Shown here: positions 40,021 to 63,450 of the stretch, one piece after another
Layout: every line of letters starts with the position of its first letter
Numbering within the stretch: position 1 is the stretch's first letter
NCBI RefSeq assembly: GCF_030540825.1
Contig: NZ_JAUOEO010000001.1
Location: 3,423,001-3,487,000, forward strand
Reading direction: 5' to 3'
Length of the DNA: 64,000 bases
DNA from: Flavivirga spongiicola
GTDB lineage: Bacteria > Bacteroidota > Bacteroidia > Flavobacteriales > Flavobacteriaceae
Program-made: the position numbers and the translations under genes
The notes under the pieces: generated by a model
What the model was told of the DNA's origin: nothing
What the model saw: only the letters and a program-made list of their open reading frames with translations
The model's database searches: none

Positions 40021-40030
40021 GAACTTTTAC

Positions 40031-41089: not shown

Positions 41090-41430
41090 AGACATTCAAG
41101 TCTACTGGGAAATGATATAAAAACATTTTGTCTCAAACTGAAAATTTAGGAAGACTCAGAAAATGAAACATTAAGACCTATATAAAGAAACATTTATACT
41201 TCATTGTAATTTTTGGGATTTCTAAATTTACAAAACTGATTTTACTTATTTTCAGCTAAGTTTTAATCCTTGTCAACAAGGCTATTTACTTATAGTTTGT
41301 ACAAAATGAAATTAATGGAAAGTAGAAGCCTCTTTGACCAAGCATATTAGTATGATAAAGAGTATGGAGGTCATATAAAATCATCGCTTTTTTGTTTGGT
41401 TTGTAAGCGAGCTACTCTAAAAATAAAATA
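41090..41430. promoter_or_regulatory. Leader region of the Tat-lyase/sulfatase operon with locus motif A
   Basis: This 341-bp gap carries the shared locus element. AACAT half-sites lie at 41167 and 41189, with ACCTATATAAAG between them. AAATTTACA follows at 41224. The rest shows no gene. The element precedes the operon by about 200 bp, so the untranslated leader would be long. Confidence 0.75.
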
Positions 41431-43344
41431 TTGGAAAATAAACGTAGAGAATTTTTGAGAACAGCTGGAATGGGAGGGCTATTGTTCATGTCGTTACCAT
41501 CGATGGGGCCATATAATTCTGGGATAGTAACCTTTAATGATGATTTACTGTTGAAGACGAGTAGCGAATTACTTAAACAATGGGGAGATACTTTACTAAA
41601 GTATCAAATAAACAATAAAAATCTAGAAGTGCTCTATGGAGGATTAATGTGCCCTGCTTGCGCAAGAATTCACGGACGCTGCCCAGAGGCTATATATCCA
41701 TTGATGTATCTTGCCAGTGATACTGGAGAGAAAGTGTATTTAGAGTCTGCAATGGCGTTGTATGAATGGATGGAAAAAAACGTTAGTCAACCAGATGGAT
41801 CCTGGGTTAATGATGTTAATGTTTCCAATTGGGTAGGTACAACTGTTTTTATGGCTATTGCCTTAGGAGAAGCTTTGATGAACCATGGTGAACTATTAGG
41901 GGAAACCGTAAAACAACAGTGGTTGCAAAGGTTAAAAAAAGCAGCAGATTTTATTAATAGCAACTTTCATATCGGGTATTCCAATATCAATTATCCAATC
42001 AGTGCTGCGTACGCATTATCATTATCAGGAGATTTGTATAATAATGAAGCATACAAAGAACACTCAAAAAAATTAGCACATCAGGCACTTGATTATATAA
42101 CTCCTAAGAATAATTTATTATTAGGAGAAAGAGGAAAAGGAAATGATCAAGCCAGCTCCAAAGGTTGTTACCCAGTTGATTTGGGCTATAATGTAGAGGA
42201 GTCCCTTCCCATGTTGGTGATGTATGGTTTGCGAACCAAAGATACTTTGGTGTTAGATGCTGTAAACAAACTTTTAGCTGCACACATGGAGTTTATGCTT
42301 CCAGATGGAGCGTGGGATAATAGTTGGGGAACCCGAAGTTTTAAATGGTCGTATTGGGGTAGCCGCACAAGTGATGGCTGTCAAACTGCTTATGGGTTAT
42401 TAGCAGATAAAGATCCTAGATTTTATAAAACGGCACTGCAAAACACCCAGCTACTTAAGGCATGTACTCATGATGGTATACTTTATGGAGGGCCACATTA
42501 TAAAACCCATGGCGTTTCACCTTGTATTCATCATACATTTTGCCATGCTAAAGCGTTGGCAACTATTTTGGATAAAGGACTTCCTGTTAAATATGATAAT
42601 ATCCCTGATAACATGAAGCTGCCAAGGGAAAACCCATATGGCGTAAAAGAAATGTCAGATATAGGTACCTGGTTGATTTCTGGAGAGCATTGGAAAGCTA
42701 CGATAACGGGCTATGATAAAGAGTATTCATTCAAGAATGGTCATCCTACAGGAGGCGCATTGTCCATGTTATGGCATAAAAAGATGGGGCCCGTTCTTGC
42801 TTCCAGTATGAATAAATATCGACTGTTTGAAACACCGAATATGCAGCACAATTATGATCCAAATTCAACCTCACTCACGGCAAGATTTCAAACAGTGGAT
42901 GGTGAATTTATGAATATAAGTGATCTAAAATCTAATATTGAATATCGAGAGTCTGAAGAAAAGATTGAATTTACTATTGAGTCAAAATTGGTAGATGAAA
43001 ATCAGAAATCTCCAGAAAGCGGAGAGATAAATGCTAAGCTACAATATACTTTTTCAGAACATTCGGTGAAAATAAGTGCTCAACATGATAGCATAAATGA
43101 AGATAAGGTGCATTTTGTAATACCCATTATTTCATCGTCTAAGGAGCCTTTTCAACAGACCTCCAGAACGTTATTAACCGTGCAAAAAGAAGGCACTGCA
43201 TTGCTCATAAAAACAAATAAACCAATCAAAATTTTGCCAACCTTAAAGGAGAAAGGCCGGATTTTTAACCACGTACCTGGCATGGAGGCCATCCCATTGG
43301 TCTTAAAAGGAAATCATGTGGTAGTAGAGTTACAGGAGAACTAA
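41431..43344 (+). CDS. Tat-exported (alpha/alpha)-toroid protein, possible lyase or hydrolase
   Basis: The protein has 637 residues. The start is TTG at 41431, because the twin-arginine signal (NKRREFLRTAGMGG) lies before the first in-frame ATG (41470). The N-terminal two thirds are helical repeats, with LYGGLMCPACARIHGRCPEA, NISNWVGTTV-type blocks, DGAWDNSWGTRSFKWSYWGSR and PCIHHTFCHAKALA. A beta-sandwich-like C-terminus follows. This architecture is shared by several lyase and unsaturated-uronidase families, and Cys/His clusters suggest a metal or structural site. I do not recognise a named family. It is first in the operon with two sulfatases and a PL12 lyase. Confidence 0.7.
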   Translation: MENKRREFLRTAGMGGLLFMSLPSMGPYNSGIVTFNDDLLLKTSSELLKQWGDTLLKYQINNKNLEVLYGGLMCPACARIHGRCPEAIYPLMYLASDTGEKVYLESAMALYEWMEKNVSQPDGSWVNDVNVSNWVGTTVFMAIALGEALMNHGELLGETVKQQWLQRLKKAADFINSNFHIGYSNINYPISAAYALSLSGDLYNNEAYKEHSKKLAHQALDYITPKNNLLLGERGKGNDQASSKGCYPVDLGYNVEESLPMLVMYGLRTKDTLVLDAVNKLLAAHMEFMLPDGAWDNSWGTRSFKWSYWGSRTSDGCQTAYGLLADKDPRFYKTALQNTQLLKACTHDGILYGGPHYKTHGVSPCIHHTFCHAKALATILDKGLPVKYDNIPDNMKLPRENPYGVKEMSDIGTWLISGEHWKATITGYDKEYSFKNGHPTGGALSMLWHKKMGPVLASSMNKYRLFETPNMQHNYDPNSTSLTARFQTVDGEFMNISDLKSNIEYRESEEKIEFTIESKLVDENQKSPESGEINAKLQYTFSEHSVKISAQHDSINEDKVHFVIPIISSSKEPFQQTSRTLLTVQKEGTALLIKTNKPIKILPTLKEKGRIFNHVPGMEAIPLVLKGNHVVVELQEN

Positions 43345-43389
43345 GATTGATGAACATTAATAGTTATGTAAACAAGTGTTTAAAAGAAT

Positions 43390-45414
43390 ATGAATATCAT
43401 TAAAACTAAAAGAATAGTGTTGATAAAATTAATAAATCGCTTACTACTTTTAACAGGAATCGTGGCCATAGTATCTTGTGGTAAAAAGATTATTGAAAAA
43501 CAAATAGTAGAGAGACCAAATTTTCTATGTATTACATTTGAAGATGCAAGCCCTTATGGGCTTAGTTGTTATGGTAATCCCGATTTTAAAACACATACAA
43601 TCGATAGTTTAGCAAAAAGAGGAATTTTATATACCAATGCATTTTCTACTGCTCCACATTGTTCACCTGCAAGATCTACATTGATAACAGGTTCATTTGC
43701 GACTACTTATGGTATGGATGTGCATCGGGAAGATTATGAAACACCTCAGCATATCTTTTACTCAGAGATTCTAAGAAAGCATGGCTATTTTTGTACTAAT
43801 AACACAAAAACAGATTACAATACGATCCTAAATGATAAGAGTTTTTGGGATGAATGTGGAGTCAATGCAACTTATTGGAGTAAACAAAGAAAACCAAACC
43901 AGCCTTTTTTTGCTGTATTTAATGCAAGTGCGACCCACATGGGAAGGATGCGCACTATAATTACAAAAGACAGAGGGAGATACAAGAAAATGGGGATAAA
44001 TCCGGAGACAATACAATTACCTAATTATGTTCCAGATTTACCAGACGTACGTTCAGATTTGGCTGTTCATTTGGAGTCCTATAAAGGCGTAGATCTTTGG
44101 TTACGTACTTTTTTAAACGATTTAAAACAAAGAGGGTTGGCAGAAAATACCATCATTTTCTTTTATAGCGATCACGGAGGTTGCTTACCTAGAGGGAAGG
44201 GGTTTCCGTTTGAATCTGGCTTAAAAGTTCCCTATATAGTCCATGTCCCAGAAAAATGGCAAAAGATATACGGAATCAAGCAAAGCATCATAGAAGATAG
44301 GTTAATAGGTTTCGAAGATTTTGCTCCTACAGTTCTTAATTTGGCAGGTATAGAGATTCCTGGATTTATGCAAGGACACCCTTTTTTAGGACCAGAATCT
44401 GATAAAGAAAAACAGTACCAGTTTGGTTTTAGAACCAATCAGGAAAATTATCATTATGATCCTTCAAGAACAGTTAGAGATGGTAAATATAAATACATCA
44501 GAAATTATATTCCCCACAAACCATTTGCTTTAAGAAATTTGTATCAGTGGGGGATGCCTGCAAATTTAGCATGGGATAATTATGTTTTATCTGGAGCTTG
44601 TAACAATGAGACCTGGTTACAACCATTTAAACCAAAAACGTCAGAGATGTTATTCGATTTAGATAAAGATCCTAACGAGTTAAATAATCTGGCAGACAAC
44701 CCTATTTATTCGAATAAATTAATAGAGCTAAGAACAGCGGTATCAAAACATATTCGTGAAACAAAAGATTTAGGTTTTTTCTTTAGAGGAGGTCGAAAGA
44801 AAGAAGAAGGCTTATATAAATGGGTTAGAAAAACTAATTTTCCATTGGAAGAGATGTACGATGCGGCGGAAAAAGCAAGTATGCCAACCTTGAGGGATAT
44901 ACCTTATCTAACAAAATTGTTATCTAACAAACATGCAGATATTAGATATTGGGGAGCGGTAGGTTTTAATACCCTTGCTTCAAGAGGAGACATTAAAGAA
45001 GTTCCTTTGGTTTTGAAAAATGTAGTAAAAGATTCTGTTATTCAAGTTTCAACAATGGCTGCCGAAGCACTTTGTTATATTTCGGAGGATGACAAAGCAC
45101 TTTCTCTTTTATTTGAAAGGTTTAAGAATAATGATAATACCGCCTATTCGGCATTGGAAACGTTGACCTGGTATCCTAAGCAAAAAAAGAGGGTGGCAAC
45201 TTTAGCGGGTAAATTGGAAAACCTATTGGCTGAAAATGAAAAAAATAAAGATGATAGAATGAGTATCTATTTGAAGATTCGTTCCTTAATGGTAAACATA
45301 GGTAAGTTACCCGTTAAAGATTTATATCCTGAAAGTCATAAAGAAAAAGGACGATTGCTTAATATAAAATCTAGACAATTTCAGTATCCTGAAGGCGTCA
45401 TATTATATGAATAA
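43390..45414 (+). CDS. S1-family sulfatase with C-terminal repeat domain, lipoprotein
   Basis: The protein has 674 residues with lipobox VSC (about 30). The formylglycine motif is CSPAR (Cys91, HCSPARSTLITG), and the metal Asp residues are in FEDAS near 51 and YSDHGG. The arylsulfatase core ends near 470. The last 160 residues look like HEAT-type helical repeats (LRDIPYLTKLLSN, DIRYWGAVGFNTLA). A sulfatase-activating enzyme must be encoded elsewhere. It hydrolyses a sulfate ester on a saccharide; position specificity is not readable. Confidence 0.92.
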   Translation: MNIIKTKRIVLIKLINRLLLLTGIVAIVSCGKKIIEKQIVERPNFLCITFEDASPYGLSCYGNPDFKTHTIDSLAKRGILYTNAFSTAPHCSPARSTLITGSFATTYGMDVHREDYETPQHIFYSEILRKHGYFCTNNTKTDYNTILNDKSFWDECGVNATYWSKQRKPNQPFFAVFNASATHMGRMRTIITKDRGRYKKMGINPETIQLPNYVPDLPDVRSDLAVHLESYKGVDLWLRTFLNDLKQRGLAENTIIFFYSDHGGCLPRGKGFPFESGLKVPYIVHVPEKWQKIYGIKQSIIEDRLIGFEDFAPTVLNLAGIEIPGFMQGHPFLGPESDKEKQYQFGFRTNQENYHYDPSRTVRDGKYKYIRNYIPHKPFALRNLYQWGMPANLAWDNYVLSGACNNETWLQPFKPKTSEMLFDLDKDPNELNNLADNPIYSNKLIELRTAVSKHIRETKDLGFFFRGGRKKEEGLYKWVRKTNFPLEEMYDAAEKASMPTLRDIPYLTKLLSNKHADIRYWGAVGFNTLASRGDIKEVPLVLKNVVKDSVIQVSTMAAEALCYISEDDKALSLLFERFKNNDNTAYSALETLTWYPKQKKRVATLAGKLENLLAENEKNKDDRMSIYLKIRSLMVNIGKLPVKDLYPESHKEKGRLLNIKSRQFQYPEGVILYE

Positions 45415-45432
45415 TGATATAAACTCACTTTT

Positions 45433-47004
45433 ATGAAAAATATATATCTGTTTTCGTTTATCATTTTCTCCTGTGTATTTCAAGCATGTTCACAGGAAAA
45501 CAGTGATGCTGTAAGACCAAATATTCTTTTTATTGCTGTTGATGATTTAAAACCGACTATTGGAAGTTTTGGAGATAGTTATGCTATTACACCAAACATA
45601 GATAAGTTATCTGAAAAGGCTACAATTTTTTTGAATAATCACACACAACAAGCTATTTGTGGTCCGTCTAGGGCAAGTTTAATGACAGGAAAGCGTCCTG
45701 ATTATACAAAGGTTAGAGACCTGAAGACTAGAATGCGAGATGTTAACCCTGATATTTTGACAATCCCTCAATATTTTAAAGAAAGTGGGTATACGACTGC
45801 TATAACGGGTAAAATTTTTGATTTTAGATGCATAGATAAATTTGGAGATAAAGTTTCTTGGACTATTCCATATATAAGAGAATATGATATAGATTATCCA
45901 GAGAAATATGGCAAACCCGAGATAAACTATTATCAAAATAAAGAGATCAAAGCGAAATATACCCAACTTAAAGAAGAAGCCAGATCTAAAGGTATTAAGG
46001 ATGTAATTCAATATGCAAAGGATAGATTTAAACCTCCTTTTGAATCGAGTAATGCACCCGATGAAGCCTATACAGATGGCGCCATCGCGGTTCATGCTTT
46101 GAAATTATTAGATACCGTTACAAAGGACCGTTCAAAACCCTTCTTTTTAGCTGTTGGGTTTAAAAGGCCGCATTTACCCTTTGTAGCACCAAAAAAATAT
46201 TGGGACTTGTACAATAGAGAAGACGTGGTATTAAGTGCTTACCAGAAAAAAGCGAAAAAGAGCACAGATTTGGCATACCACAACTCTTTTGAATTGTTAA
46301 AATACAAAACTCCAGAGATAGATTACATTGTAAAAGATGGTTTGTTGGAATTAAGTTCAGATGCGCAAAAAAAACTAATACATGGCTATTACGCCTCCGT
46401 GTCATTTGTAGATGTTCAGATAGGAAAGATTGTAAAAAAGCTAAAACAATTAGGATTAGACAAAAATACGATCATCGTGCTTTGGGGAGATCACGGTTGG
46501 CATTTGGGAGATCATAGTATGTGGAACAAACATTCTAATTTTGAACAAGCTACACGCTCCCCTTTAATAATAAGCGCACCCTATTTAAATAATGCAACTT
46601 TAAAAGTAAGTTCTCCCACCGAATTTTTGGATATTTTTCCGACCCTATGCGAACTATCTGGGGTGGATATTCCAGAGGAATTAGACGGAAAAAGTTTATT
46701 TCCAATAATGAATGGTGCAAAGAAAGAAGTAAAGAAATATGCGGTTAGTCAGTATCCTAGAGGAGATAACACAGGGTATAGCTTTAGAACCGGAAGCTAT
46801 AGATATACCGTTTGGATAGGAAATAATAAAAAAAGCACAGATGTCATAACCCTTGATGACATTGTGGCTCAGGAACTATATGATTATAGTGTTGACCCTT
46901 TGGAAACATCCAACTTTTTTGGAGAAAAAGAGTATAAATCCATTGAGCAAGAATTGCTCGCAATGGCAGAGGCATTTTTTACAAGAGAAGTAAAACAAAA
47001 ATAG
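45433..47004 (+). CDS. S1-family sulfatase, iduronate-2-sulfatase-like, lipoprotein
   Basis: The protein has 523 residues with lipobox FQAC (about 19). The motif CGPSR (Cys76, AICGPSRASLMTGKRPD) is the formylglycine site, and IAVDDLKP holds the metal Asp pair. LWGDHGWHLGDHSMWNKHSNFE is the block typical of the iduronate-2-sulfatase-like branch. In this locus, 2-O-desulfation of a hexuronic acid is plausible. It lies 18 bp after the previous sulfatase and 63 bp before the PL12 gene. Confidence 0.92.
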   Translation: MKNIYLFSFIIFSCVFQACSQENSDAVRPNILFIAVDDLKPTIGSFGDSYAITPNIDKLSEKATIFLNNHTQQAICGPSRASLMTGKRPDYTKVRDLKTRMRDVNPDILTIPQYFKESGYTTAITGKIFDFRCIDKFGDKVSWTIPYIREYDIDYPEKYGKPEINYYQNKEIKAKYTQLKEEARSKGIKDVIQYAKDRFKPPFESSNAPDEAYTDGAIAVHALKLLDTVTKDRSKPFFLAVGFKRPHLPFVAPKKYWDLYNREDVVLSAYQKKAKKSTDLAYHNSFELLKYKTPEIDYIVKDGLLELSSDAQKKLIHGYYASVSFVDVQIGKIVKKLKQLGLDKNTIIVLWGDHGWHLGDHSMWNKHSNFEQATRSPLIISAPYLNNATLKVSSPTEFLDIFPTLCELSGVDIPEELDGKSLFPIMNGAKKEVKKYAVSQYPRGDNTGYSFRTGSYRYTVWIGNNKKSTDVITLDDIVAQELYDYSVDPLETSNFFGEKEYKSIEQELLAMAEAFFTREVKQK

Positions 47005-47067
47005 ATGGTGTGAATGATAACTATTATGCTTGTAGTTGAATTGACATTAAATTATAGATAACTAAAT

Positions 47068-49224
47068 ATGATCTTAAGAATAAATCATTTTGTAATTCTT
47101 TTTCTCTTAATTGGATTCAAGACTGTTAAAGCTCAAAAGAGTCAAGTTTTAGAAAGACTCGATTTGAATAATCCACAATTATTGGAAACCAAAGAGGCTT
47201 ATCAAAAAGGAAATGAGAAGGCTGCATTAGAGTCATTATTGACATATTATCGAAAAAAAGATGATATGTATTTAAAGGCTTTTAAGAGTGATATTGATTT
47301 TATTAAAACCCAATACCGTGAAGCGGTAGATAGAACGGTGAAAACCGCCAATGAAGTATTGAAAAAGTCTTTTATGTTTCGATACGAATGGGATATGGAA
47401 AAAACAAATATACCATACCAATTTAAGGGAGAGATAAATTGGACAGCGTCTCCCAATGGTGATCCTGAGTGGTGTTATATGATTAACAGACATCGTTTTT
47501 GGATTGATCTTGGAAAGACTTATTTTTTAACAGGAAAGGAAAAATATGCAAAAGGTCTTGTTAACCAAATAGCGCATTGGATTGATAATAACCCAATAGA
47601 AGATAGGCTCAAAAAATTATCGTGGAGAAGAATAGAGGCTGGTATTCGTTGTGAAAATTGGATTAAATCTTTTGAATATATTAAAGAATCAAAATATGTG
47701 ACTCCAGAGTTTTTGGTGAAATTCCTGAATGCCATGTATGAACATGGCATGTATATAAACAGCTCGTATAACTATTTTTCAAAAACAAGCAATTGGGGTG
47801 TTTTAGAATTCCACGGATTGTTTAATTTATCCCATTATTTCACGGAATTTAAGCTGGCCCCTCAATGGCAGCATGACGCTATTGATCATTTAGCAAATAA
47901 TATACAATTACAAATTCTGGAAGATGGCAGTCAATGGGAGCAATCTCCCATGTACCACAATGAGCTTTTTCATTGTTTTATGAATGTGAATTTAATTGCA
48001 CAGCGAAAAAATATCGTACTTCCAGAAATTTTAGTTCAAAAAACTAAGGCTATGGCATACGCTAACATAAAATGGCAAAAACCAAATTTCCATCAACCCA
48101 TGTTAGGAGATAGTGATGATACGGATTTACGAGGGTTACTTACGCAGGCTTCTTTTATATTTAATGATGAGGTTATAAAATCAAGAGCATTAAAGACCTT
48201 AGATTACGAGACCTTTTTTACACTTGGGAGAGAAAATTACAGAACATACCAAAATATGACATCCTCTCAGCCAGATTTTTTATCTGCTTACCAGAAAAGT
48301 TCGGGAGATTATTATATGCGTTCTTCATGGAAAGAAGATGCTACATATACCAGTCTGCATTTAAAAAAATTAGGGAATGGGCACGGGCATGATAATATTT
48401 TACATTTTACACTTTTTGCCAATCAAAGAGATTATTTGGTAGATGGAGGGCGCTATACCTATGTGAATAATGAATGGAGGAGACTATTCAAGAGCAGTAA
48501 GAGTCACAATACTTTGGGAGTAGATGATCTGCCTAATAGTATTTATAAAAACTCATGGACCAATGAATATGAAGCACGTTCGCAAGGGATATATACAAAA
48601 TCGACTAGCGATTTTGATTATGCAGAAGCAGAAAATACAGCCTATAAAAGATTGAAAGATCCCGTTTCAATGAAGAGAAGAATGCTGTTTTTGAAACCAA
48701 ATATTTGGTTGGTGTTTGATAGCTTTTCTGCCAACGGGAGCCATAAATATTCGCAATATTTTAATTTTCCAAACAACCTTATTGAAATAAAAAACAATGG
48801 ACTGTCTACGACATACCCAAAAGATAATCTAAGGATACAACCCATAAATGAAACCCGTATCGAGTTGGTTGATGCCTGGTGGTCGCCGGAATACAATCTG
48901 AAAAAGAAAAGTAAACGTGCTGAATTATCTAAAAGGGCTAAAGGTTTCAGTTCTTTTATTTCATTGTTGTACTTCCCGGAAACCACGGTATTGCGATTCG
49001 AAAAAACACCTGTATATAACCGTGAAGATGAATTGATTTCAGACACAGATGCTGAGGCGGTAAGTATTTTTTATGAAGATAAACAATATACGCTCTTCAT
49101 AGTCCACAATTCTCCCTCACCTAAGACTCACTTTTTTAAAGTAAATAATCAATTGATATATGGGGAAGTCGTATTGATTGAGAAAGGTATAAATGGAAAT
49201 AAAATTTTAGTTATTAAGGAATAA
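47068..49224 (+). CDS. Heparinase III-like polysaccharide lyase (PL12)
   Basis: The protein has 718 residues with signal peptide ending near KAQ. An N-terminal (alpha/alpha) toroid (RFWIDLGKTYFLTG, WRRIEAGIRCENWIKSFEYI, SNWGVLEFHGLFNLS, EQSPMYHNELFHCFMNV) precedes a beta-sandwich lyase domain (GHGHDNILHFTLFANQRDYL, VDGGRYTYVNNEWRRLFKSSKSHNTLGVD). These are heparinase II/III family blocks; length and order fit PL12 heparan-sulfate lyases, which cut at glucuronate-containing, low-sulfated sites. The Tyr, His and Asn of these blocks are the usual catalytic residues. It is the fourth gene of the operon. Confidence 0.9.
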   Translation: MILRINHFVILFLLIGFKTVKAQKSQVLERLDLNNPQLLETKEAYQKGNEKAALESLLTYYRKKDDMYLKAFKSDIDFIKTQYREAVDRTVKTANEVLKKSFMFRYEWDMEKTNIPYQFKGEINWTASPNGDPEWCYMINRHRFWIDLGKTYFLTGKEKYAKGLVNQIAHWIDNNPIEDRLKKLSWRRIEAGIRCENWIKSFEYIKESKYVTPEFLVKFLNAMYEHGMYINSSYNYFSKTSNWGVLEFHGLFNLSHYFTEFKLAPQWQHDAIDHLANNIQLQILEDGSQWEQSPMYHNELFHCFMNVNLIAQRKNIVLPEILVQKTKAMAYANIKWQKPNFHQPMLGDSDDTDLRGLLTQASFIFNDEVIKSRALKTLDYETFFTLGRENYRTYQNMTSSQPDFLSAYQKSSGDYYMRSSWKEDATYTSLHLKKLGNGHGHDNILHFTLFANQRDYLVDGGRYTYVNNEWRRLFKSSKSHNTLGVDDLPNSIYKNSWTNEYEARSQGIYTKSTSDFDYAEAENTAYKRLKDPVSMKRRMLFLKPNIWLVFDSFSANGSHKYSQYFNFPNNLIEIKNNGLSTTYPKDNLRIQPINETRIELVDAWWSPEYNLKKKSKRAELSKRAKGFSSFISLLYFPETTVLRFEKTPVYNREDELISDTDAEAVSIFYEDKQYTLFIVHNSPSPKTHFFKVNNQLIYGEVVLIEKGINGNKILVIKE

Positions 49225-49267
49225 CATAGAGCTTAAACTAACAGTCAGGCTCCTTATAAATAGATGT

Positions 49268-49331
49268 AACATATAGCATTTAAATAGGTAACATCAGTTG
49301 GATCGTATTTTTAAAGGACTTCCTAAATTGT
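49268..49331 (+). promoter_or_regulatory. Locus motif E (upstream of T9SS-tail protein)
   Basis: The half-sites AACATA (49268) and AACATC (49290) are 22 bp apart, and AAATTGT begins at 49325, 28 bp after the 7-nt second half-site. It has the same spacing as the other four elements of the locus but less sequence match in the middle. Confidence 0.6.
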
Positions 49332-49356: not shown

Positions 49357-50121
49357 ATGAAGAAAAAATACTCAATTAAGACACATTTGACTTTTATATT
49401 TGTGTTAAGTCTTTTATTAGGTTTTGAAGTGTCTGTAAATGCTCAGACCTTTAATTTTGATACTGATACTGACACAGAAGGTTGGACATCATCTAATGGA
49501 ACACTGGCTGTTGCTGGAGGTATTATGACCTTAACACCAAATGTAGGAACAACTAGCCCAGGTGCTAAGTATCCAAATGCTCTAAACCCTGCTAATGGAC
49601 AATACTTACATGTATTATGCACAACTCCTGGTCCGGAAATTGATAGACGAATTCGATTTAGAGTTGATAGTGATGGTACATGGACAACTCAAAATATTAT
49701 AATTTCTGCTAACCCCCAAACATATAATTTTGATCTCAGTAGTAATCCAGGCTGGACGGGAACATCTATAAGTGATATAACCATTCGTTTTCAATCAAAT
49801 AATAGTACAACAGCATCTGTAGAAAACGTTTCAATTGATGCCATAATTTTTGACAACAATCCAACATTGAACATCGTGTCATTAGAAAGATTCGATTTCT
49901 CATTCTTTCCTAACCCAACCCAAGATAAGATAAACTTAAAAGCTAATGAGCCTATTAACCAAGTTCAAGTATATACCTTATTAGGTAAAGAAGTTTTAAA
50001 TTTAGACTTAGGCGACATATCTAACCCAAACGTGGATATCTCTAGCTTAAGTGTTGGAATTTATAATATGAAAGTTAGCATTGGCGATTCAGTTGGAGTC
50101 GTAAAGGTTGTTAAAAAATAG
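49357..50121 (+). CDS. Secreted beta-sandwich protein with T9SS sorting tail
   Basis: The protein has 254 residues with signal peptide ending near VNA-Q. Residues about 32-165 (NFDTDTDTEGWTSSNG to AIIFDN) look like a carbohydrate-binding-module-type beta-sandwich. The last 80 residues are a Por-secretion tail, with FDFSFFPNPTQDKINLKA, VQVYTLLGKEVLNL and SSLSVGIYNMKVSI, ending in VVKK. It is likely exported by the type IX system and attached to the surface or released. It sits alone between the PL12 and PL13 genes with its own locus motif, so it may be a glycan-binding accessory protein. Confidence 0.85.
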   Translation: MKKKYSIKTHLTFIFVLSLLLGFEVSVNAQTFNFDTDTDTEGWTSSNGTLAVAGGIMTLTPNVGTTSPGAKYPNALNPANGQYLHVLCTTPGPEIDRRIRFRVDSDGTWTTQNIIISANPQTYNFDLSSNPGWTGTSISDITIRFQSNNSTTASVENVSIDAIIFDNNPTLNIVSLERFDFSFFPNPTQDKINLKANEPINQVQVYTLLGKEVLNLDLGDISNPNVDISSLSVGIYNMKVSIGDSVGVVKVVKK

Positions 50122-50278
50122 AACAAATCAATACTAATTAGTTAAAGAACGGTTTTATAGATAAGCCAGTTTTTAAGATTTTAGAAAAAGGTTAGGGTTA
50201 TGAATATTTGTGAGCACAAATAAAGCATAACCCTAATTTTATTTTATAAAGTATATAATAAATAACTATAGAAAAAGT

Positions 50279-50345
50279 AACATCCACACCTTTACAAAGA
50301 AACATTTATCATATGACTGTAATTTAATATCTAGTTAAATTTACA
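50279..50345 (+). promoter_or_regulatory. Locus motif B (upstream of PL13)
   Basis: AACAT half-sites at 50279 and 50301 (22 bp apart) have ACCTTTACAAAG between them. AAATTTACA lies at 50337-50345, 29 bp after the AACATTT half-site. It lies about 50 bp before the PL13 start codon. Confidence 0.75.
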
Positions 50346-50393: not shown

Positions 50394-51449
50394 ATGAAAA
50401 GAGTTTACCTGTGTTTTTTTATGCTTATAGCATTGCTTTCTTGTGCACAAACTAAAAAGCAATCAAAAAAGCTAAATGTTGAAAAAGAAATTACATCCAG
50501 GTCAAGTGCTCAAAAAGATGTTGCGAGTGCTAGTGATATTGTTGATGGTCGATTTATAGTAATCGGGAATAGGAGCCCAAGTGGCATAGTTACCAGAGAA
50601 GAAACAAAAAAGGGGCCTATATATCATTTTAAAGCAACAGGAGATGCAAATCGTATAGAATTTAGCCCTTGTTTTGGCTCTAAAGAAAACCTTAAGGATA
50701 TTTCTCAAGAAGAAATAGAGCTATTGAAAAAAATAAAAAGTGCTTATGAATATGATGATGAAGGACAATATGGAGAAACGGTGACCTATGAGTGGGAAGC
50801 ACGATTTCCTGAAAAAATGATTGAAGGAAAAGGGGGTATATTTGCTCAATGGCATGGCAGGCCAGACCGTACGTTGGTTAAAGATCCAAAAGGAAATTTA
50901 CAATACCTGCCAAAAGAGAAATTTGTAGCTATGTTGGATACTGTATATTTTGAAAAAAATGTAGGTATGAGTATAAAAGATAATAAACCAAATGGGTGGT
51001 TTGTTGATAATTCTGCAGGAGGTCCCATTGCAGCTTTCCATTTTCGTCCAGATTATATGTACCTAATGGTGCGTACAGAAGCAAATCGAATTTCAAATCC
51101 AACATTTAAGGTAAAACCAAAACCAGGAATACATCTCAATCAATTAATAGGAAAAGATGGCAAGTATGGCACCATCGTATTTGAAAAACCTTCATCAGAA
51201 GTGCCTATTAATGAATGGATCAAGTTCAAGGTCAAAATTAAATATAGTAAGTATAGCAAAATAGCTGATGAGGTATTAAAATCAGGAGGAATTCAGGTAT
51301 GGATGAATGGTGAAAAAGTAGCTGATTGGAAAGGTAATATTGGTAAAAACGATCTACATGGCCCTTATTTTAAATATGGAATTTACAAACCGGGAAAACT
51401 TGGTTTTAAAGTAGATTGTAAAAAACTTATACAAACAATTAATAGGTAA
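50394..51449 (+). CDS. Heparinase I-like polysaccharide lyase (PL13), lipoprotein
   Basis: The protein has 351 residues with lipobox LLSC (Cys17). A beta-jelly-roll protein follows, with GGIFAQWHGRPD (a catalytic His is expected in this strand), FHFRPDYMYLMVRTEAN, EWIKFKVKIKYSK, GGIQVWMNGEKVADWKG and the C-terminal GPYFKYGIYKPG, whose Tyr matches the catalytic Tyr region. These are the blocks of PL13 heparin lyases, which cleave highly sulfated 2-O-sulfoiduronate sites. The length is close to the family (about 380). It is 75 bp before the PL8-type gene. Confidence 0.85.
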   Translation: MKRVYLCFFMLIALLSCAQTKKQSKKLNVEKEITSRSSAQKDVASASDIVDGRFIVIGNRSPSGIVTREETKKGPIYHFKATGDANRIEFSPCFGSKENLKDISQEEIELLKKIKSAYEYDDEGQYGETVTYEWEARFPEKMIEGKGGIFAQWHGRPDRTLVKDPKGNLQYLPKEKFVAMLDTVYFEKNVGMSIKDNKPNGWFVDNSAGGPIAAFHFRPDYMYLMVRTEANRISNPTFKVKPKPGIHLNQLIGKDGKYGTIVFEKPSSEVPINEWIKFKVKIKYSKYSKIADEVLKSGGIQVWMNGEKVADWKGNIGKNDLHGPYFKYGIYKPGKLGFKVDCKKLIQTINR

Positions 51450-51523
51450 TGTAATACATTGACAACGGTTTATTGTAAAGACATAACATGGTAAAAAAGA
51501 AATTAGAAATTAAATTTTATAGA

Positions 51524-55263: not shown

Positions 55264-55280
55264 ATTATAACTATCTAGAG

Positions 55281-55345
55281 TAAATGTATGCAGAGATTCC
55301 AATAGTATTAAATTGGAAAAGAAATAAGGTTTCGTTCTAACATAC
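55281..55345 (+). pseudogene. Degenerate fragment of the PL8-type gene 3' end
   Basis: The sequence aligns with 54441-54505, i.e. the last codons, the stop and the first bases after the PL8-type gene. TTGGAAAAGAAATAAGGTT is shared exactly. It ends at the same relative point past the stop codon. Confidence 0.75.
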
Positions 55346-55369
55346 GATTATAAATAAAAAAAGAAAAAT

Positions 55370-55546: not shown

Positions 55547-55600
55547 ATTTAAAAATTAGGGTTAGAGTAAATAAATGTACTTTATAAAGTCCAATGAGAA

Positions 55601-56806: not shown

Positions 56807-56822
56807 TCTTTTTTGTTTTAAG

Positions 56823-59135
56823 TTATTTTTTAATCAGTTTATAATTTCCACCAGTACCTTCAAAATACAAGGTTCCGTCTTCATTTACAGTATTAGAAGT
56901 TTTGAACATCTCATTGTCTTTTATAATTTGCCAATGCCCTGGTTTTAAATCGGTCAATAGAATCTTGTATGATTTATTTTCTTGAATGCTAAAACTAAAT
57001 GGTTGATCCATTGATTGAAACCATTTATTGAAGCATACAATTCTATCTTGTATCTGGATTCCCAGAATGTGCTCTCCGTCTATTTTTTTGACAGATAAAT
57101 GAGTATTGTTATCATTATCCATTATCTGCATGACATTAAGAAAATAGTTTTCCTGCGTATCGGTTTTGGGTGTGACTTCTATTCTCCAGGCACCTCTCTC
57201 ATTAGCAATGTCTGGTCGTTTGGTAGGAGTGTTGTTATAGTTTGTACCACGTACCCAAAAATCTTTACCAGGACCCCCTACCGATTTTATTTCAAGATCA
57301 TCCAATTCTGGAATTAAAGTCGTATTGACTAATTTTCCGGTATAACCATTTTCGGTAAGTGATAACGTTGTTTCATTATTACTGATTTTTGGTTTTTCTA
57401 TACTGTGTAAAAGCCAGGTTTTTTGAAAAGAAGGGTTAGATGAAACCACTTTATCAAAAACAATAAATACAGCAGGAATAGTATCATTTTTTAAATTTAA
57501 AAAAGTGAACGACCTTTTAACTTCTTTGACCTTTTTGCTATACGCTTTTGTAATATCACCCTTTAAATAGGAATAATCTGGACTAAGAAGGTCAGGACCA
57601 AACTCTCGTGCCAAAATCTCACCAGTCTTATAGCCTTTGGTCAACAAATCCTTTAATGTTACCGGAGGACTCCATCCATCACCAGGCATTCTTTGTCCGC
57701 CATCATTAGCTGCAAAAGGTGTTCTTCGGGATCCGCCATAGCTTGACGATTTAAATGTTTCATTGGGGTCATAAATCAGCAAACTATTGTGTGCTATGGA
57801 GCGCTTAAAATAGTTTTTGTTGTGATCACTATTGTACCCGCCAGATGATCCGGAATAAATACCAGAATCAATGGCAAGTGGGCCTTTGTAGTAAATTTGA
57901 AATGCACCTGCATCCAGATGTTGATGGTTGTTAAATTGATATTCGTTTATTTTCATTTCGGCTATAACACTTTTTTTGTTCCAGCCTGTACGCGCAATCA
58001 TCCATCCATAAGGAGCTCCGAAATATTTAGTTAAAGGTAAATCTGAAGGTGTCTTTTTTCCAAGTTCAGTGTCTTTCCATAAAAACTCAAATAGCTTATC
58101 CCTACTATCAATATTGGGTCTTTTTAAATATTCATTGTTAACATATTCATCTTTATAATAGCTTCCGGATAATAACCCTACCAATGCCATGGATGTTGGT
58201 TTACCTTGTGAATAATTAACATCACCACTGGCAAGAAATTGCCCATCAGGACGTCTACTATAAATATGATGATACGGAATATATTGTTGAGATGGATTAT
58301 ACACATTACCAGCTCCCATACGATCAAATATCCAAAGCGGATATAAGTCTGCTGCCTGTCTTACCTTGCTATAGCCAGCACCTTGATGATAAGCTTCTCC
58401 AGGGTAAAACCAATTTCTGACGGGAAGGTGCTCACGAAAAAAACGTCCGGCTGCCAGATGGTACATTTCGGGAAATTCATCATAAATTGCTATGGACGCA
58501 GATAACAGATCTCTCATAATCATCCATTCTGAAGAATGTCCAGTAACCGAACTTTGTTTTACGGGAGGATATCCGCATTCAAGTCTTTTGGCCATGCGCA
58601 GAAATTCAGCTATAAAGGCTTGTTTTTCGTTTTCGGTCAAAAGATCATGACACCAATCATAAACAATGGCTCCAGACACCATCATGCGACCAAAAGCCCT
58701 GGCAATGTCTTGTACGTGCGGCCAATCGCTTTTTTGCATTTTAGTGAGTATATCTTTAATGGCTTGACGCCCGAATACCTTTTTACCTGTGGTTAAATAA
58801 CGTATGGCATTCAATTCAGAACGAACCGTTACTCCTTGCTGTTTAACATAATCTCTCCAACCTTTTACCTTACCATCATCTACGCTTTCTTCTTCGCTCA
58901 TTTTTACCAGCTCATTCCAAATAGACTGGAGTTTGGGGTTGGAGATTCGCTTTTTTAAATCTGGAATATCCTTAGCTCTTAAGTAGAGCCTTGGATGTTC
59001 AGATGGAGGTATAGGAATTGAAATACCATCAATGGATTCCCATTTAAGGCTATTCTCATTCTGAGCTATAACTGGCCCACATATCTGGAAAAATGTACCG
59101 ATCAAAATAGTACGAATTAGGACTTTATATATCAT
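56823..59135 (-). CDS. Heparinase II-like polysaccharide lyase (PL21)
   Basis: The protein has 770 residues with signal peptide ending near VIAQ. Counting along the sequence puts the His of TGHSSEW at 200, the Glu at 203, the Tyr of QGAGY at 255 and the His of FNNHQHLDAG at 404. This is a constant offset of two from the published catalytic residues His202, Glu205, Tyr257 and His406 of Pedobacter heparinase II (772 residues). This agreement makes PL21 very likely. Heparinase II cuts both heparin and heparan sulfate. HQHLDAG also carries the zinc-site residues. It is first in an operon with GH88. Confidence 0.93.
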   Translation of the reverse strand: MIYKVLIRTILIGTFFQICGPVIAQNENSLKWESIDGISIPIPPSEHPRLYLRAKDIPDLKKRISNPKLQSIWNELVKMSEEESVDDGKVKGWRDYVKQQGVTVRSELNAIRYLTTGKKVFGRQAIKDILTKMQKSDWPHVQDIARAFGRMMVSGAIVYDWCHDLLTENEKQAFIAEFLRMAKRLECGYPPVKQSSVTGHSSEWMIMRDLLSASIAIYDEFPEMYHLAAGRFFREHLPVRNWFYPGEAYHQGAGYSKVRQAADLYPLWIFDRMGAGNVYNPSQQYIPYHHIYSRRPDGQFLASGDVNYSQGKPTSMALVGLLSGSYYKDEYVNNEYLKRPNIDSRDKLFEFLWKDTELGKKTPSDLPLTKYFGAPYGWMIARTGWNKKSVIAEMKINEYQFNNHQHLDAGAFQIYYKGPLAIDSGIYSGSSGGYNSDHNKNYFKRSIAHNSLLIYDPNETFKSSSYGGSRRTPFAANDGGQRMPGDGWSPPVTLKDLLTKGYKTGEILAREFGPDLLSPDYSYLKGDITKAYSKKVKEVKRSFTFLNLKNDTIPAVFIVFDKVVSSNPSFQKTWLLHSIEKPKISNNETTLSLTENGYTGKLVNTTLIPELDDLEIKSVGGPGKDFWVRGTNYNNTPTKRPDIANERGAWRIEVTPKTDTQENYFLNVMQIMDNDNNTHLSVKKIDGEHILGIQIQDRIVCFNKWFQSMDQPFSFSIQENKSYKILLTDLKPGHWQIIKDNEMFKTSNTVNEDGTLYFEGTGGNYKLIKK

Positions 59136-59565
59136 TGTGTCTAAACTTGAATGTTTTCTGCTAAATTAATTCTTAAAGTAATTCTTACAGAGAATCATTT
59201 GTGTCATAAAACAAGTAGATATGTTTCATTATCCCAGATTCTATATTAGAAAACCTATTATAACTTAAAACTGTAGTAAACTATAGAGCTTCTTTACTTT
59301 TTTAGTTTAGCTCTCCCTCTTCACGAGTTTAAGAAGTGCCTACATCTTTTTAACTATTATATTCTATTCATCAATATTTGTGGACACATTATAGCTTCTA
59401 GAGGAGAGGCTACTCGATGCTATGTATGCTGAAACTTAATAAAAAGTCACAGTTTTTGCAGCTTTAACCTTCATAGTAAAGTTATAATGTTTTAAGAAAG
59501 AGACCTGACGTTTTATTAGCTGAGAGATAGAGTTAAGCTCTGATCAAAGAGTTTCGTACTTCTGA
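59136..59565. other. Upstream gap of the PL21-GH88 operon
   Basis: No gene is visible in 430 bases. A weak relative of the locus motif (minus strand, AATAT and AACAT 22 bp apart near 59243-59221) is present but lacks the AAATT box, so I do not count it. The remainder shows nothing recognisable. Confidence 0.4.
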
Positions 59566-60390
59566 TTAATCTATAATCTCATAAATATTATAATTATCAT
59601 AAAGTCCTTTAGCAGGAACCATAAGTCGAATGGCAGTTTGACCGCCTTTGAGGTGTTTGTTTGTATCTTGATATCGAAAACTAAGCGTATTGTTAATGTA
59701 CCATTCAACAGTGTTTTTATACTTAATAATCTTCAAATGATGCTTCCCTTGTAAATCTTTGAGAGTTAGATCTTCTCCTTTGATAGTAAGTATGCGACCT
59801 GGACATTTACGCATGTTAGTAGTACCTCTGCCTGGAGCAAAAAATGAGATTCTGTAGTTATGTAAATCACTTTTGGTGTATTGTGCGGCAACCCCAAAAC
59901 GTTTTTTTAAAGCGTTGTCAAATACATCCTGTCCTTGATTTCCAGTACAACTGAACATAAGCATATGTAATGCGTTTTCAGACAAACTTTGAAATTCACA
60001 CTCGATAATATAGTTTTCGGGGGTTTTGAATTTATTCCAATAAACTAAGTGACCTCCTCTGAAAACCCCATCGACATAATACTTTTCAATTTCCGAACCT
60101 AAATCCTTTTTCATGGCAGGTTCCACCGCTTCATAAAAATTTGCTCCTAACCCTGAGAAGTGACCTCCGTTTTGAGTGTAGTATGCTGAAGTAACATCGT
60201 AGTATTTGGAATGCAATAACAACTTACCGTCTTGAATTGTAGCTATTCCAGGCCCTTCCATAACCCAATTGGATAAGTCTGAAGGGGCGTTAAAATTACA
60301 GGAATAGATCAGTTTTGTTTGATGCTCCTTATGAGTTTTACACCCTAAAAAACTGATAAGACATAGAAGTGTCAAGGTTATCTGATTCAT
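59566..60390 (-). CDS. DUF1961-family lipoprotein
   Basis: The protein has 274 residues with lipobox FLGC (Cys17). It has a concanavalin-like beta-sandwich pattern: LSNWVMEGPGIATIQDGKLLL, FRGGHLVYWNKFKTPENYII, ALHMLMFSCTGNQGQDVFD, and a C-terminal strand EWYINNTLSFRYQD. I recall this family (DUF1961) from polysaccharide loci as a putative sugar-binding or degrading protein. The gene is divergent from the 898-residue lyase-like gene and the two share the 190-bp gap with locus motif D. Confidence 0.75.
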   Translation of the reverse strand: MNQITLTLLCLISFLGCKTHKEHQTKLIYSCNFNAPSDLSNWVMEGPGIATIQDGKLLLHSKYYDVTSAYYTQNGGHFSGLGANFYEAVEPAMKKDLGSEIEKYYVDGVFRGGHLVYWNKFKTPENYIIECEFQSLSENALHMLMFSCTGNQGQDVFDNALKKRFGVAAQYTKSDLHNYRISFFAPGRGTTNMRKCPGRILTIKGEDLTLKDLQGKHHLKIIKYKNTVEWYINNTLSFRYQDTNKHLKGGQTAIRLMVPAKGLYDNYNIYEIID

Positions 60391-60471
60391 AATATGATAA
60401 GTTTTGAGGTTTTAAAAATAAAGTTTTGTACTATTCTTTGTTGGGTCAAATGGAGATATTATTTTAAATGG

Positions 60472-60537
60472 AACATTGATACCCTTTATATGTAACATGG
60501 AACTGTTAAAACTGCTATGAATCTATATAAATTAGTA
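60472..60537 (+). promoter_or_regulatory. Locus motif D (between DUF1961 and DUF4962 genes)
   Basis: The half-sites AACATT (60472) and AACATG (60494) are 22 bp apart, with ACCCTTTATA between them. AAATTAG starts at 60529, 28 bp after the 7-nt second half-site. It points to the plus-strand lyase-like gene 44 bp later. Confidence 0.65.
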
Positions 60538-60580
60538 AGCTGAATATTTATATAAATAACCCATCTGTAATATCGGGGAA

Positions 60581-63277
60581 ATGAAAGTTATGAAAAAACA
60601 CTACCTCAGACTCAGTCTTGCCCTTATTTTTATAATGCAATCGTGTATTAATAAGGATACTAATGTTGTGACTTCGTTAGAAGCCGAAAAGCATATTGAT
60701 AAAAAATTCATTCATGCCATGGTTAAATTAGAATCATTTCCGAAAAGCGGCAAAATAGAAGTGAACTCACCATGGATGTTATGGTCTCCAGTCGTTAAAG
60801 AAAAGAAGGGGTATAATACTTATGAGTTTAAAGAAGGATTTTTATATAGAGGAAGGGTTTCAAAAGATCCAGAATTTAAAGATGCAACCACGATGACTTC
60901 AGAAGCAAGAGAATGGAGTTTTTTTAATCCTCACCAAGAACTGAATTTGGGGACATGGTATTGGCAACATGCCGTTATTGACAAAAAGACTAATATAGAA
61001 ACTTGGTCTGAAGTCATGACATTTGAAGTCACGGGTGAAGAACGAAAATTCGTTTCTCCTCCTATTGGTCAGGTGATCAAAAATATACCACGAAACCATC
61101 CACGTGTACTTGCTACCAAAGATCAAATAGGTAAATTACCATTTCCTAAGAAGGCTGTGACTATATTTATTAATAAGATGGATGGTTTTTTGGGAAAAAC
61201 CTTTCCCAAGTCGCTGATATACCATGATGAAGCTGTCTTGTCAGAAAAAAGAACGAGCATAAATAAGGTAGATTACAATAGATTTATTGATAAACGAACC
61301 AAGGAAATTTATAGAGGACATAAATTTAGATTGGAGAGTATGCTTAAAGCTTATTTAGTGACTGGAGATGCGAAGTATGTAGAAGAGTCTTTAAGAAGGT
61401 ATTTTTACCTGAAGAAACAATATTTTGATATTGTAAAAAAAGGCGTTTCCAATGATTTTACAGATGGTTTCTATCTTAATATATTGGCTGGTATTTATGA
61501 TGTATGCTATGATTACCTTGAAGATGATGAAAAAGAATATATCAAGAAAACATTGATAGTATCACAGAAAAAAACATACCATCACTTTCTTCACAGAGCA
61601 GAGCATTACATTTTAGATAGCCACATGTGGCAATTTCACTTACGTACCTTTTTGGGGACGGCGTTGTCTTTAGTGCACGATGTACCAGAAGCTAAAAAAT
61701 GGGTAGAGTATATTTATGAAGTTTGGACGATGAAAGCACCAGTAGGTAGTAGAAATGATGGCGGGTGGTTTACTGGAAATGGCTATTTTGATGCAAACAA
61801 AGGGTCGCTTCTTATTATGCCAATAATAATGACTCGTATGACTGGAGTCAATTATTTTGATCATCCCTGGTATCAAAATGTTGGCGCTTATTTAGCTTAT
61901 ACAGCACCAGTAGGGCATATTGCCGGTAGTTATGGTGACAATGCAGATGTAAAAAAAGAGAATACCATGGATTTTGTAATGGCCTATGCTCACATTACAG
62001 GAGATCCTTATGCAAGGCAATATATTGATTTAGGAAAAAAATTAGGAACTCCAGAAACAAGAGGGATTCGAAAGGCATCCGATGAAGAAAGTAGATTACC
62101 TATGGGATTGGATGAGAACGGGAACCTGTTTTGGTATATGTACCAACCATTGCCTCTAAATGCTAAAAGGAATCATCAGACAGATTTTTCACGTAGCAAA
62201 GTTTTTGCAGATGTGGGAACAGTGACAACACACACTGATTTATTAAATCCTGATCGTAACTTGATGTTTTCCTTTAGATCGTCTCCATTTGGTATGGTAG
62301 GTCATTCACAAGCGAGTCAGAATACGTTTAATATCCAATATGGGGGAGAGCCCTTGTTTTTTCGAACGGGATATTATTCAAGCTGGGCAGATCATCATTC
62401 ATTACAAAGTTATAAGCATACACGTGCCCATAACGGTGTATTGGCTGATGGTATAGGGCAAGCCTATACAACAGAAGGATATGGATGGGTTGCTAGGTTT
62501 GCCACTGGTGAAAAGATAAGCTACGCCTTAGGTGATGCCAGTAATGCATATAATGGTACGATGAGAGACCAGCTTATTAAGATGTTTAAAAAATGGGATG
62601 TACATCATACGCCTGAAAATGGATTTGGTAACCCGGGAGTAACGCGTTTTAGAAGACATACTATGATGTTGGAAGATCATATTATTGTAATTTATGATGA
62701 ACTTGAAGCTAATAAACCAGTAACATGGTCATGGTTAATACATAGTAAAGATACATTGGCCGGAAGTGAAAATTCATATTATACGGAAAACAAAAAAGGT
62801 AAAGGAACACTTCATTTATATAATAGTAATAATGATTTGAAAAATACAGTTACCAATAAGTTTCATGCGCCAGCTGTGGATTGGTTAGGTAACGGTTGGA
62901 AGAGAGGAATAACATATAAGAATCATTGGCACGGAAAAACAGATACAGAGAAATTGCCCAAAACACGCTTTTTAGCCATCTTACAAGTTACAGCAAAAGA
63001 AAATGAATTTATGCCTATGAGTTATTTAGGGGGTGGTAAGTTACAGATTGATGGTTGGCAAATTAGTGTTGAGCTAGATGAAAACAAACCAGCTAGCTTT
63101 ATATGCAAAAAGGAAGGTGCTGGGGCGATAAGCTTTAATAATAGAAGTATTGAAATGAATGCTAAAAAGTATGTGCACCAAACTCCTGGGAGTACGATGT
63201 TAATTGAAATAATAAATGATAAGATTGAAAAGCAGGAGGTTATTGATACATTACCCGATGAAGTTATTTATTATTAA
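60581..63277 (+). CDS. DUF4962/heparinase II-III-fold protein (possible PL15-like exolyase)
   Basis: The protein has 898 residues with lipobox MQSC (about residue 22). The N-terminal beta domain (about 45-155, WMLWSPVVKEKKGYNTYEFK, WYWQHAVIDKKT) matches my recollection of DUF4962. Next is an (alpha/alpha) toroid (DSHMWQFHLRTFLGTALSL, GGWFTGNGYFDANKGSLL). A C-terminal heparinase II/III-type sheet follows (SPFGMVGHSQASQNTFNIQYGG and SYKHTRAHNGVLADG, with His residues in likely catalytic positions). This order resembles PL15 lyases used as exo-acting enzymes in glycosaminoglycan loci. The family assignment is tentative. Confidence 0.72.
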   Translation: MKVMKKHYLRLSLALIFIMQSCINKDTNVVTSLEAEKHIDKKFIHAMVKLESFPKSGKIEVNSPWMLWSPVVKEKKGYNTYEFKEGFLYRGRVSKDPEFKDATTMTSEAREWSFFNPHQELNLGTWYWQHAVIDKKTNIETWSEVMTFEVTGEERKFVSPPIGQVIKNIPRNHPRVLATKDQIGKLPFPKKAVTIFINKMDGFLGKTFPKSLIYHDEAVLSEKRTSINKVDYNRFIDKRTKEIYRGHKFRLESMLKAYLVTGDAKYVEESLRRYFYLKKQYFDIVKKGVSNDFTDGFYLNILAGIYDVCYDYLEDDEKEYIKKTLIVSQKKTYHHFLHRAEHYILDSHMWQFHLRTFLGTALSLVHDVPEAKKWVEYIYEVWTMKAPVGSRNDGGWFTGNGYFDANKGSLLIMPIIMTRMTGVNYFDHPWYQNVGAYLAYTAPVGHIAGSYGDNADVKKENTMDFVMAYAHITGDPYARQYIDLGKKLGTPETRGIRKASDEESRLPMGLDENGNLFWYMYQPLPLNAKRNHQTDFSRSKVFADVGTVTTHTDLLNPDRNLMFSFRSSPFGMVGHSQASQNTFNIQYGGEPLFFRTGYYSSWADHHSLQSYKHTRAHNGVLADGIGQAYTTEGYGWVARFATGEKISYALGDASNAYNGTMRDQLIKMFKKWDVHHTPENGFGNPGVTRFRRHTMMLEDHIIVIYDELEANKPVTWSWLIHSKDTLAGSENSYYTENKKGKGTLHLYNSNNDLKNTVTNKFHAPAVDWLGNGWKRGITYKNHWHGKTDTEKLPKTRFLAILQVTAKENEFMPMSYLGGGKLQIDGWQISVELDENKPASFICKKEGAGAISFNNRSIEMNAKKYVHQTPGSTMLIEIINDKIEKQEVIDTLPDEVIYY

Positions 63278-63384
63278 AGAAGCATAGGTTTCCTTTTTTG
63301 TTACAAGCCTCAAATAATTAAAGCTCTTTTTAATGATATTTAAGTATTATATTGATTAACACTAACATTTCATCGCGAAAAAGT

Positions 63385-63450
63385 AACATTTAAACCTTTA
63401 TAAAGAAACATTTGTTAGCACGTTTTTTTAAGCCCGCTCTTAAATTTACA
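63385..63450 (+). promoter_or_regulatory. Locus motif C (upstream of susC)
   Basis: AACATT (63385) and AACATT (63407) are 22 bp apart, with ACCTTTATAAAG between them. AAATTTACA lies at 63442-63450, 28 bp after the second half-site. It precedes the susC start by 26 bp, so TAAATTTAC is the likely -7 region. Confidence 0.8.

Follow-up and report, generated by a model that had tools for sequence, protein, structure and literature searches.

The lyase locus of Flavivirga spongiicola raises the question of what reads a DNA arrangement that recurs, with hardly any change in spacing, in front of one transcription unit after another. Five copies lie in the window, by which we mean the whole 64,000-nt stretch of DNA analysed here (contig C1:3423001–3487000). 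A sequence-only reading of the window had proposed that one activator, encoded elsewhere, controls the whole locus through them. Judged from the letters, the genomic setting and the comparison with relatives, the element very likely serves a regulon for the use of glycosaminoglycans, as both the core promoter and the binding site of its activator, a hybrid two-component system (HTCS).

A direct repeat and a promoter box at a fixed distance

The five repeated DNA elements in the window are real. Each is a direct repeat of AACAT half-sites with a 22-bp period (AACAT-N17-AACAT; Table 1), and the middle of the repeat reads ACCTnTAnAAAG in three of them. The letters of the downstream box are AAATTTACA at three sites, AAATTGT at one and AAATTAG at one. 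Counted from the last letter of the second AACAT up to the T of TAnnTT, the gap measures 29 bp at four sites and 30 bp at 50279. Letters and spacings are exactly as first described. In the whole genome (5.9 Mb, four contigs), the pattern AACATN17AACATN20-34AAATT has five matches, all of them the five reported sites, and the reversed control pattern has one; the search for stray sites with both spacings thus finds the strict AAATT form in this locus alone.

Taken by itself, the half-site pair is weak evidence, because its count with up to one mismatch is not above chance (17 in the window vs. 14.6 ± 3.8 expected, with 34 of 100 shuffles reaching 17). The element is significant because the box stands at a fixed distance from the repeat. 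In a grid of 52 periods (8–59) and 55 gaps (5–59), giving 2860 cells and requiring at least 9 of 10 half-site letters plus TAnnTT, the cell (22,29) was the unique maximum for the 73-kb locus, with six hits against a cell mean of 0.195 and a next best of three. At the looser level of 8 of 10 letters it held eight hits and was not the unique maximum, 16 cells reaching that number.

The list of five units proved correct in its members and incomplete, as two further clear sites and a weak one belong to the same locus. The core AACATNNNNACCTNTANAAAGAAACAT, with up to three mismatches allowed, matched the genome five times, at 41167, 50279, 63385, C1:3517385 (one mismatch) and one place elsewhere (three mismatches), and site 7 was found with a matrix of six sites. 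The gap is 29 bp in six of the seven clear sites and 30 bp in the remaining one. The weak eighth site, with 8 of 10 half-site letters, stands 26 bp ahead of the heparinase II–GH88 genes (59135–55601), and the ortholog of this heparinase II gene in a relative, G735, is likewise preceded by a site. At 8 of 10 letters or better, 13 rows were listed for the locus, of which five others besides the weak eighth site look like chance. At site 7, the mechanically assigned first ATG of the minus-strand sulfatase L007:5641–7062 falls inside the regulatory site (L007:7023–7090); the protein probably starts at residue 24 of the frame, which opens a signal-peptide-like stretch.

Table 1. Copies of the element and associated genes. 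Positions are those of the window unless prefixed by C1. Scores and genome ranks are those of the model built from foreign sites.
Feature	Position	Strand	Description	Score and rank
Site 1	41165..41230	+	Half-sites 41167/41189; box TAAATTTA at 41223–41230	9.8 bits, level of chance matches
Genes behind site 1	41431–49224		Protein with below-cut-off GH47 match, two sulfatases, PL12-like	
Lyase gene	47068–49224		Best solved-structure match by sequence: heparinase III, 5.2e-42	
Site 2	49266..49331	+	Half-sites 49268/49290; box TAAATTGT at 49324–49331; precedes T9SS-tail protein (49357–50121)	25.4 bits, rank 3
Site 3	50277..50343	+	Half-sites 50279/50301; box TAAATTTA at 50336–50343, gap 30; precedes PL13–PL8 (50394–54487)	15.9 bits, rank 7
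Lyase gene	50394–51449		Best solved-structure match by sequence: heparin lyase I, E 1.2e-34	
Lyase gene	51488–54487		Best solved-structure match by sequence: chondroitinase AC, 2.6e-23	
Lyase gene	56823–59135		Best solved-structure match by sequence: heparinase II, 1046.7 bits	
Weak eighth site	59161..59227	-	AACAT/CACAA 22 bp apart, gap 30; box TAATTTAG	11.1 bits, among chance matches
Site 4	60470..60535	+	Half-sites 60472/60494; box TAAATTAG at 60528–60535; precedes DUF4962 heparinase II/III-like protein	18.3 bits, rank 5
DUF4962 gene	60581–63277		Best solved-structure match by sequence: heparinase II/III-like protein, 5.3e-116	
Site 5	63383..63448	+	Half-sites 63385/63407; box TAAATTTA at 63441–63448; precedes susC	27.5 bits, rank 1
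Unit behind site 5	63476 to past window end		susC (start 63476), then susD, CBM96, GH88, two sulfatases, PL8	
Beyond window, after the susC–PL8 unit		-	PL8, glycosidase, CBM9 protein, sulfatase, MFS, ROK kinase, sulfatase	
Minus-strand PL8		-	Best solved-structure matches by sequence: chondroitinase (2.5e-58), chondroitin ABC lyase	
Site 7	C1:3513087	-	Box TATATTTG; about 100 bp before HTCS, divergent sulfatase–ROK–MFS–sulfatase genes ahead	Rank 6, repeat part only (model positions 1–48)
HTCS gene	C1:3513190–3517320	+	Candidate regulator, 1376 aa	
Site 6 (TRAP site)	C1:3517385		Between HTCS gene and dctPQM, 65 bp past HTCS; perfect box TAACTTTG	Rank 2
Beyond window, further on		+	HTCS, TRAP importer dctPQM, deaminase-like protein	

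An alignment of 15 sites from three genera, confined to sites with gap 29 (so that site 3, with gap 30, was left out), refined the element to GNAACAT-N15-GNAACAT-N29/30-TAnnTTTG. Invariant in all 15 are the G two bases before AACAT in both half-sites, the C and A of the first half-site and the AACA of the second. The box letters occur 14 (T), 15 (A), 15 (T), 15 (T), 12 (T) and 9 (G) times; the TA and TT had entered the search for most of these sites, and the last TG had not. The box thus reads TAnnTTTG, as the early comparison with a -7 element had suggested, and this is the published -7 consensus; the same study reports that no -33 motif was found in Flavobacterium johnsoniae (PMC7366714). 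A search for a -33 element (TTTG/TTG) among the 15 sites gave no column between repeat and box with TTG in at least three of them. A fixed TTG would be expected to be absent here, because an activator-dependent promoter would obtain its -33 contact from the activator.

A hybrid two-component regulator beside the sites and in relatives

The cluster continues for about 36 kb beyond the window, and roughly 26 kb past the window end it contains the gene of a candidate regulator, identified by its domains and its proximity. The protein (L007:7190–11320) carries Reg_prop, Y_Y_Y, HisKA, HATPase_c, Response_reg and HTH_18/HTH_AraC domains, the architecture of an HTCS. By sequence comparison, the closest solved structure to its sensor is 4a2l (452.5 bits, 3e-134), which is BT4663 (PMC8534201), described as a heparin/HS sensor (PMC3878776). 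All eight sites of the genome's own locus lie within about 50 kb of this gene, and two flank it. An HTCS with an AraC domain, its gene bracketed by sites, accordingly fits the activator that had been sought outside the window. The assignment of two-turn direct repeats to an AraC-type or hybrid two-component activator is likewise supported by the HTCS, by the flanking sites and by their recurrence with HTCS orthologs.

HTCSs are a major class of glycan-use regulators in Bacteroides (PMC11253607). The motifs predicted for 16 Bacteroides HTCSs are described as direct repeats averaging 21 bp (PMC3878776), and the response-regulator parts of BT4663 and BT4124 have been tested for binding to their susC promoters (PMC11253607). 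The element has such a direct repeat: the period was free in the grid, and 22 bp with a gap of 29 bp was the unique maximum both in this locus and in G735. In the later site lists the period was fixed at 22, and these lists are hence no test of it.

Control of the whole locus, as first proposed, is too wide a claim. The stretch with the KduI/dehydrogenase/DUF4861 operon and the LacI-type gene (37093–41089) has no row in the site list that starts at 8 of 10 letters. The operon runs divergently from the LacI-type gene and is likely a uronate-catabolism unit in its own right, separately controlled.

When 299 family genomes were searched with the HTCS, the top hits apart from the own protein came from G216 (46% identity) and G169 (43%); among 397 family genomes, the HTCS at E 1e-277 retrieved G735 (54%), G216 and G169, and SusC at E 1e-250 retrieved four others, G094, G169, G735 and G216. 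Order-wide, the HTCS search at E 1e-280 found the own genome only (1 of 395), and class-wide at 1e-265 it found two of 395, the own genome and one distant hit. None of 36 HTCS loci from a genome-collection scan (best-segment identity 26–44%) contains RACAT-N17-RACAT-N20-34-TAnnTT.

G735, which belongs to another genus, came into the analysis when the geometry was already known from the own genome and from G169. At 9 of 10 letters or better, (22,29) was again the unique maximum of the 2860 cells, with six hits (mean 0.127, next three), and at 8 of 10 letters it was so once more, with 14 hits (next nine). Five of the six hits stand before a gene; for the sixth, at 43360 on the minus strand, the box falls within a gene, and chance is the likely explanation. 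With gaps of 29 and 30 at 8 of 10 letters, nine of 16 places have the box 30–160 bp before a gene start, the other seven looking like chance. Behind the nine are susC (at 8 of 10 letters only), a gene at 15388, a deaminase homologue, heparinase II, ROK–MFS, a PL8-like gene at 43803, two GH88 genes and one further gene. In G169, sites stand before GH88, susC, DUF4962 and, with the box CACCTTTG, ROK–MFS; the grid cell (22,29) has three hits, a number reached by eight of the 2860 cells, and seven at 8 of 10 letters, reached by 75 cells. G169 also has an AACAT pair 22 bp apart at L080:1268 (41268 in the joined stretch), upstream of the HTCS gene; the pair faces away from that gene, lacks a box and has no gene in front of it, and may be a trace of autoregulation or a relic.

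The HTCS of G216 is 46% identical and has near-identical recognition helices, yet this genome offers two weak candidates only, before MFS and PL8 (L075:2463, 16.7 bits; 55514 on the minus strand, 8 of 10 letters); its grid cell (22,29) is empty at 9 of 10 letters and holds three hits at 8 of 10, close to what an average cell has. G094 has SusC and SusD about 66% identical and an HTCS of only 32% identity, with 29% over its last 150 residues. There, (22,29) has no hit at 9 of 10 letters and one at 8 of 10, and the model of foreign sites described below gave nothing above 7.9 bits in 100 kb. The element thus appears to be conserved with HTCS orthologs, clearly in G735, fairly in G169 and by two weak sites in G216, and it is lacking in G094, whose HTCS is unrelated. 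The sites in G735 and G169 and their absence from G094 indicate that the element follows the HTCS and not the transport genes, with G216 as a doubtful case. The comparison of related flavobacterial loci that the sequence-only reading had called for therefore turned out in its favour: the geometry recurs with the HTCS ortholog in other genera and is missing where the HTCS is unrelated.

A model was built from nine foreign sites (six from G735, three from G169), using sequence only and none of the own sequence; it is not fully independent, because its members were chosen by likeness to the own element. Scanning the own genome gave 4206 first-look candidates, of which 150 were scored and 59 matched at E 10 or better. 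Six of the first seven ranks are sites of this locus (Table 1). The background was estimated from 11 other genomes of the same genus. At E 0.01 or better, three of these gave a single match and eight gave none, whereas the own genome gave four. One of the three matches (G1137, L105:1502), near a LacI-type gene, is an AACAT pair with 9 of 10 letters and a TAnnTT box at gap 29. Its overlap with the opening codons of a reading frame leads us to take it as chance; all the same, it shows that such look-alikes can turn up, about one per genome.

Other possible readers of the element

Rank 4 of the scan (24.2 bits, C1:3719722) lies between a second HTCS gene (C1:3715467–3719645) and its susC. Across 66 loci (925 kb), mostly around HTCS genes of other genomes, this site scored best; the next reached 14.5 bits and then 13 (the DUF4962 site of G169). 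With this similar site 200 kb away, the element is not confined to the one locus. A GNAACAT pair with the box TAACTTTG stands ahead of the susC that goes with the second HTCS. One motif could thus serve two regulators, and paralogous HTCSs with similar motifs have been reported (PMC3878776). It would nevertheless be surprising if the sites were read by this second protein or by a lone AraC-type regulator, whether on its own or jointly with the adjacent HTCS: none of the eight sites is farther than about 50 kb from the adjacent HTCS and two flank its gene, the sites accompany orthologs of that HTCS in G735 and G169, and only one high-scoring site is found at the second. The locus around the latter (L101:5467–9787, i.e. 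C1:3715467–3719787) shows the site followed by susC/susD, a sulfatase and GH2, with GH20 and DUF2961 upstream, and is possibly a cross-regulated sulfated-glycan locus.

The two HTCSs of this genome are 33% identical overall and 40% in the DNA-binding region, and their first recognition helices are similar. In an alignment of 68 DNA-binding domains, 65 after removal of three duplicates, SRV(H/Q) in the first recognition helix is found in six domains, those of the own HTCS, G735, G169, G216, the second own HTCS and one HTCS in G119. All five carriers other than G119 have a site or a weak candidate nearby. The G119 protein has YFS instead of YFR in the second helix, and the best match in 60 kb of that genome (15.4 bits) lies inside a gene and has no box. 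Helix 1 with SRVH alone is therefore ruled out as a predictor of sites by G119; the second-helix form GFxDxxYFR is also common among the other aligned HTCSs. The helix pair may be regarded as a lead, not a proven code, and as a starting point for predicting HTCS targets.

The half-site can also be viewed as TGTAAC, which resembles the -35 elements of extracytoplasmic function (ECF) sigma factors, so that the element would be an ECF promoter. ECF promoters have 16–17 bp between -35 element and -10. Here there are two copies at a fixed 22 bp, and the nearer copy is 29–30 bp from the box, about twice the usual ECF spacing. The box, moreover, is the primary-sigma -7 consensus TAnnTTTG (PMC7366714), and although SusC-linked ECF/anti-sigma pairs occur in Bacteroides (PMC3878776), an ECF promoter is highly improbable. 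Scarcely any more credible is binding by the LacI-type regulator encoded at 39962–41089, whose gene does sit in the lyase part of the window and ends 76 bp upstream of site 1. LacI operators are palindromes and the element is a direct repeat; in addition, no LacI hit at E 1e-30 is listed in the stretches from four relatives, yet G735 and G169 carry sites.

One element before heparin- and chondroitin-type lyase genes

With the adjacent HTCS as the favoured reader, a mechanism can be outlined. Unsaturated glycosaminoglycan disaccharides in the periplasm would be the signal, upon which the HTCS would autophosphorylate and pass the phosphate to its own receiver domain. An HTCS dimer would then occupy the repeat, with each GNAACAT half-site taken by one AraC domain and the two domains on the same DNA face, two helical turns apart. 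The nearer half-site would fall about 45–41 bp upstream of the transcription start, near the place of a -33 element, where the dimer may stand in for the missing -33 contact and bring the primary sigma factor to the -7 box TAnnTTTG. The HTCS would govern no fewer than seven promoters, perhaps eight, serving lyases, sulfatases, SusCD, GH88, the ROK kinase and the MFS and TRAP importers.

In AraC class II activation at I1–I2, direct-repeat half-sites lie two turns apart with a period of 21 bp, the proximal one over the -35 region. The present element shares the direct-repeat half-sites two turns apart and differs in its 22-bp period, in showing no -35/-33 element and in its box, the TAnnTTTG of the Bacteroidota primary sigma factor. 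By its layout it very probably joins the known Bacteroides HTCS-site type, with a promoter geometry that seems tighter than in the available descriptions (PMC3878776, PMC11253607); searches of open-access text listed no paper on an HTCS binding motif for flavobacteria.

The less ordinary feature is that one regulator would act over both heparin-type and chondroitin-type lyase genes (Table 1); since units of both types are alike preceded by one element, a single regulator for the two classes is suggested. B. thetaiotaomicron is described as having separate HTCSs for heparin (BT4663) and chondroitin/hyaluronan (BT3334) (PMC3878776, PMC9067506). As far as the cited accounts go, the HTCS_Hep (BT4663) regulon resembles the present one in its propeller-sensor HTCS beside susCD and heparin lyases, in a direct-repeat site and in including a kinase, an inner-membrane transporter and a sulfatase (PMC3878776, PMC11253607). 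Unlike there, the element here additionally stands before genes of the PL8 chondroitinase type, a TRAP importer and the T9SS-tail protein. The HTCS_Hya (BT3334) regulon is similar in placing PL8, GH88, sulfatases and susCD under an HTCS (PMC3878776, PMC9067506), but is described as separate from the heparin regulon, whereas here one element covers both lyase classes.

The fixed ruler from the half-sites to the -7 box predicts start sites and outlines the regulon here and in two further genera, and the distribution of the element suggests that one sensor handles heparin-type and chondroitin-type substrates. A wider reading is tentative, and we hold it somewhat less probable than not: one HTCS may be the single switch for all glycosaminoglycans, heparin/heparan sulfate as well as chondroitin/hyaluronan, and the rigid ruler of 22 plus 29/30 bp together with the helix pair SRV(H/Q)-(L/F)-(Y/F)R and GFxDxxYFR might match regulator to regulon from sequence alone, including the second, possibly cross-wired HTCS locus 200 kb away.

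A minor observation concerns the receiver domain of the HTCS, where the S/CHIP contact motif reads KHIP in the own protein, NHIP in G735 and G216 and SGIP in G169. This motif has been tied to inhibition of DNA binding, and the B. thetaiotaomicron HTCSs that deviate from it are described as mostly linked to host glycans (PMC11253607).
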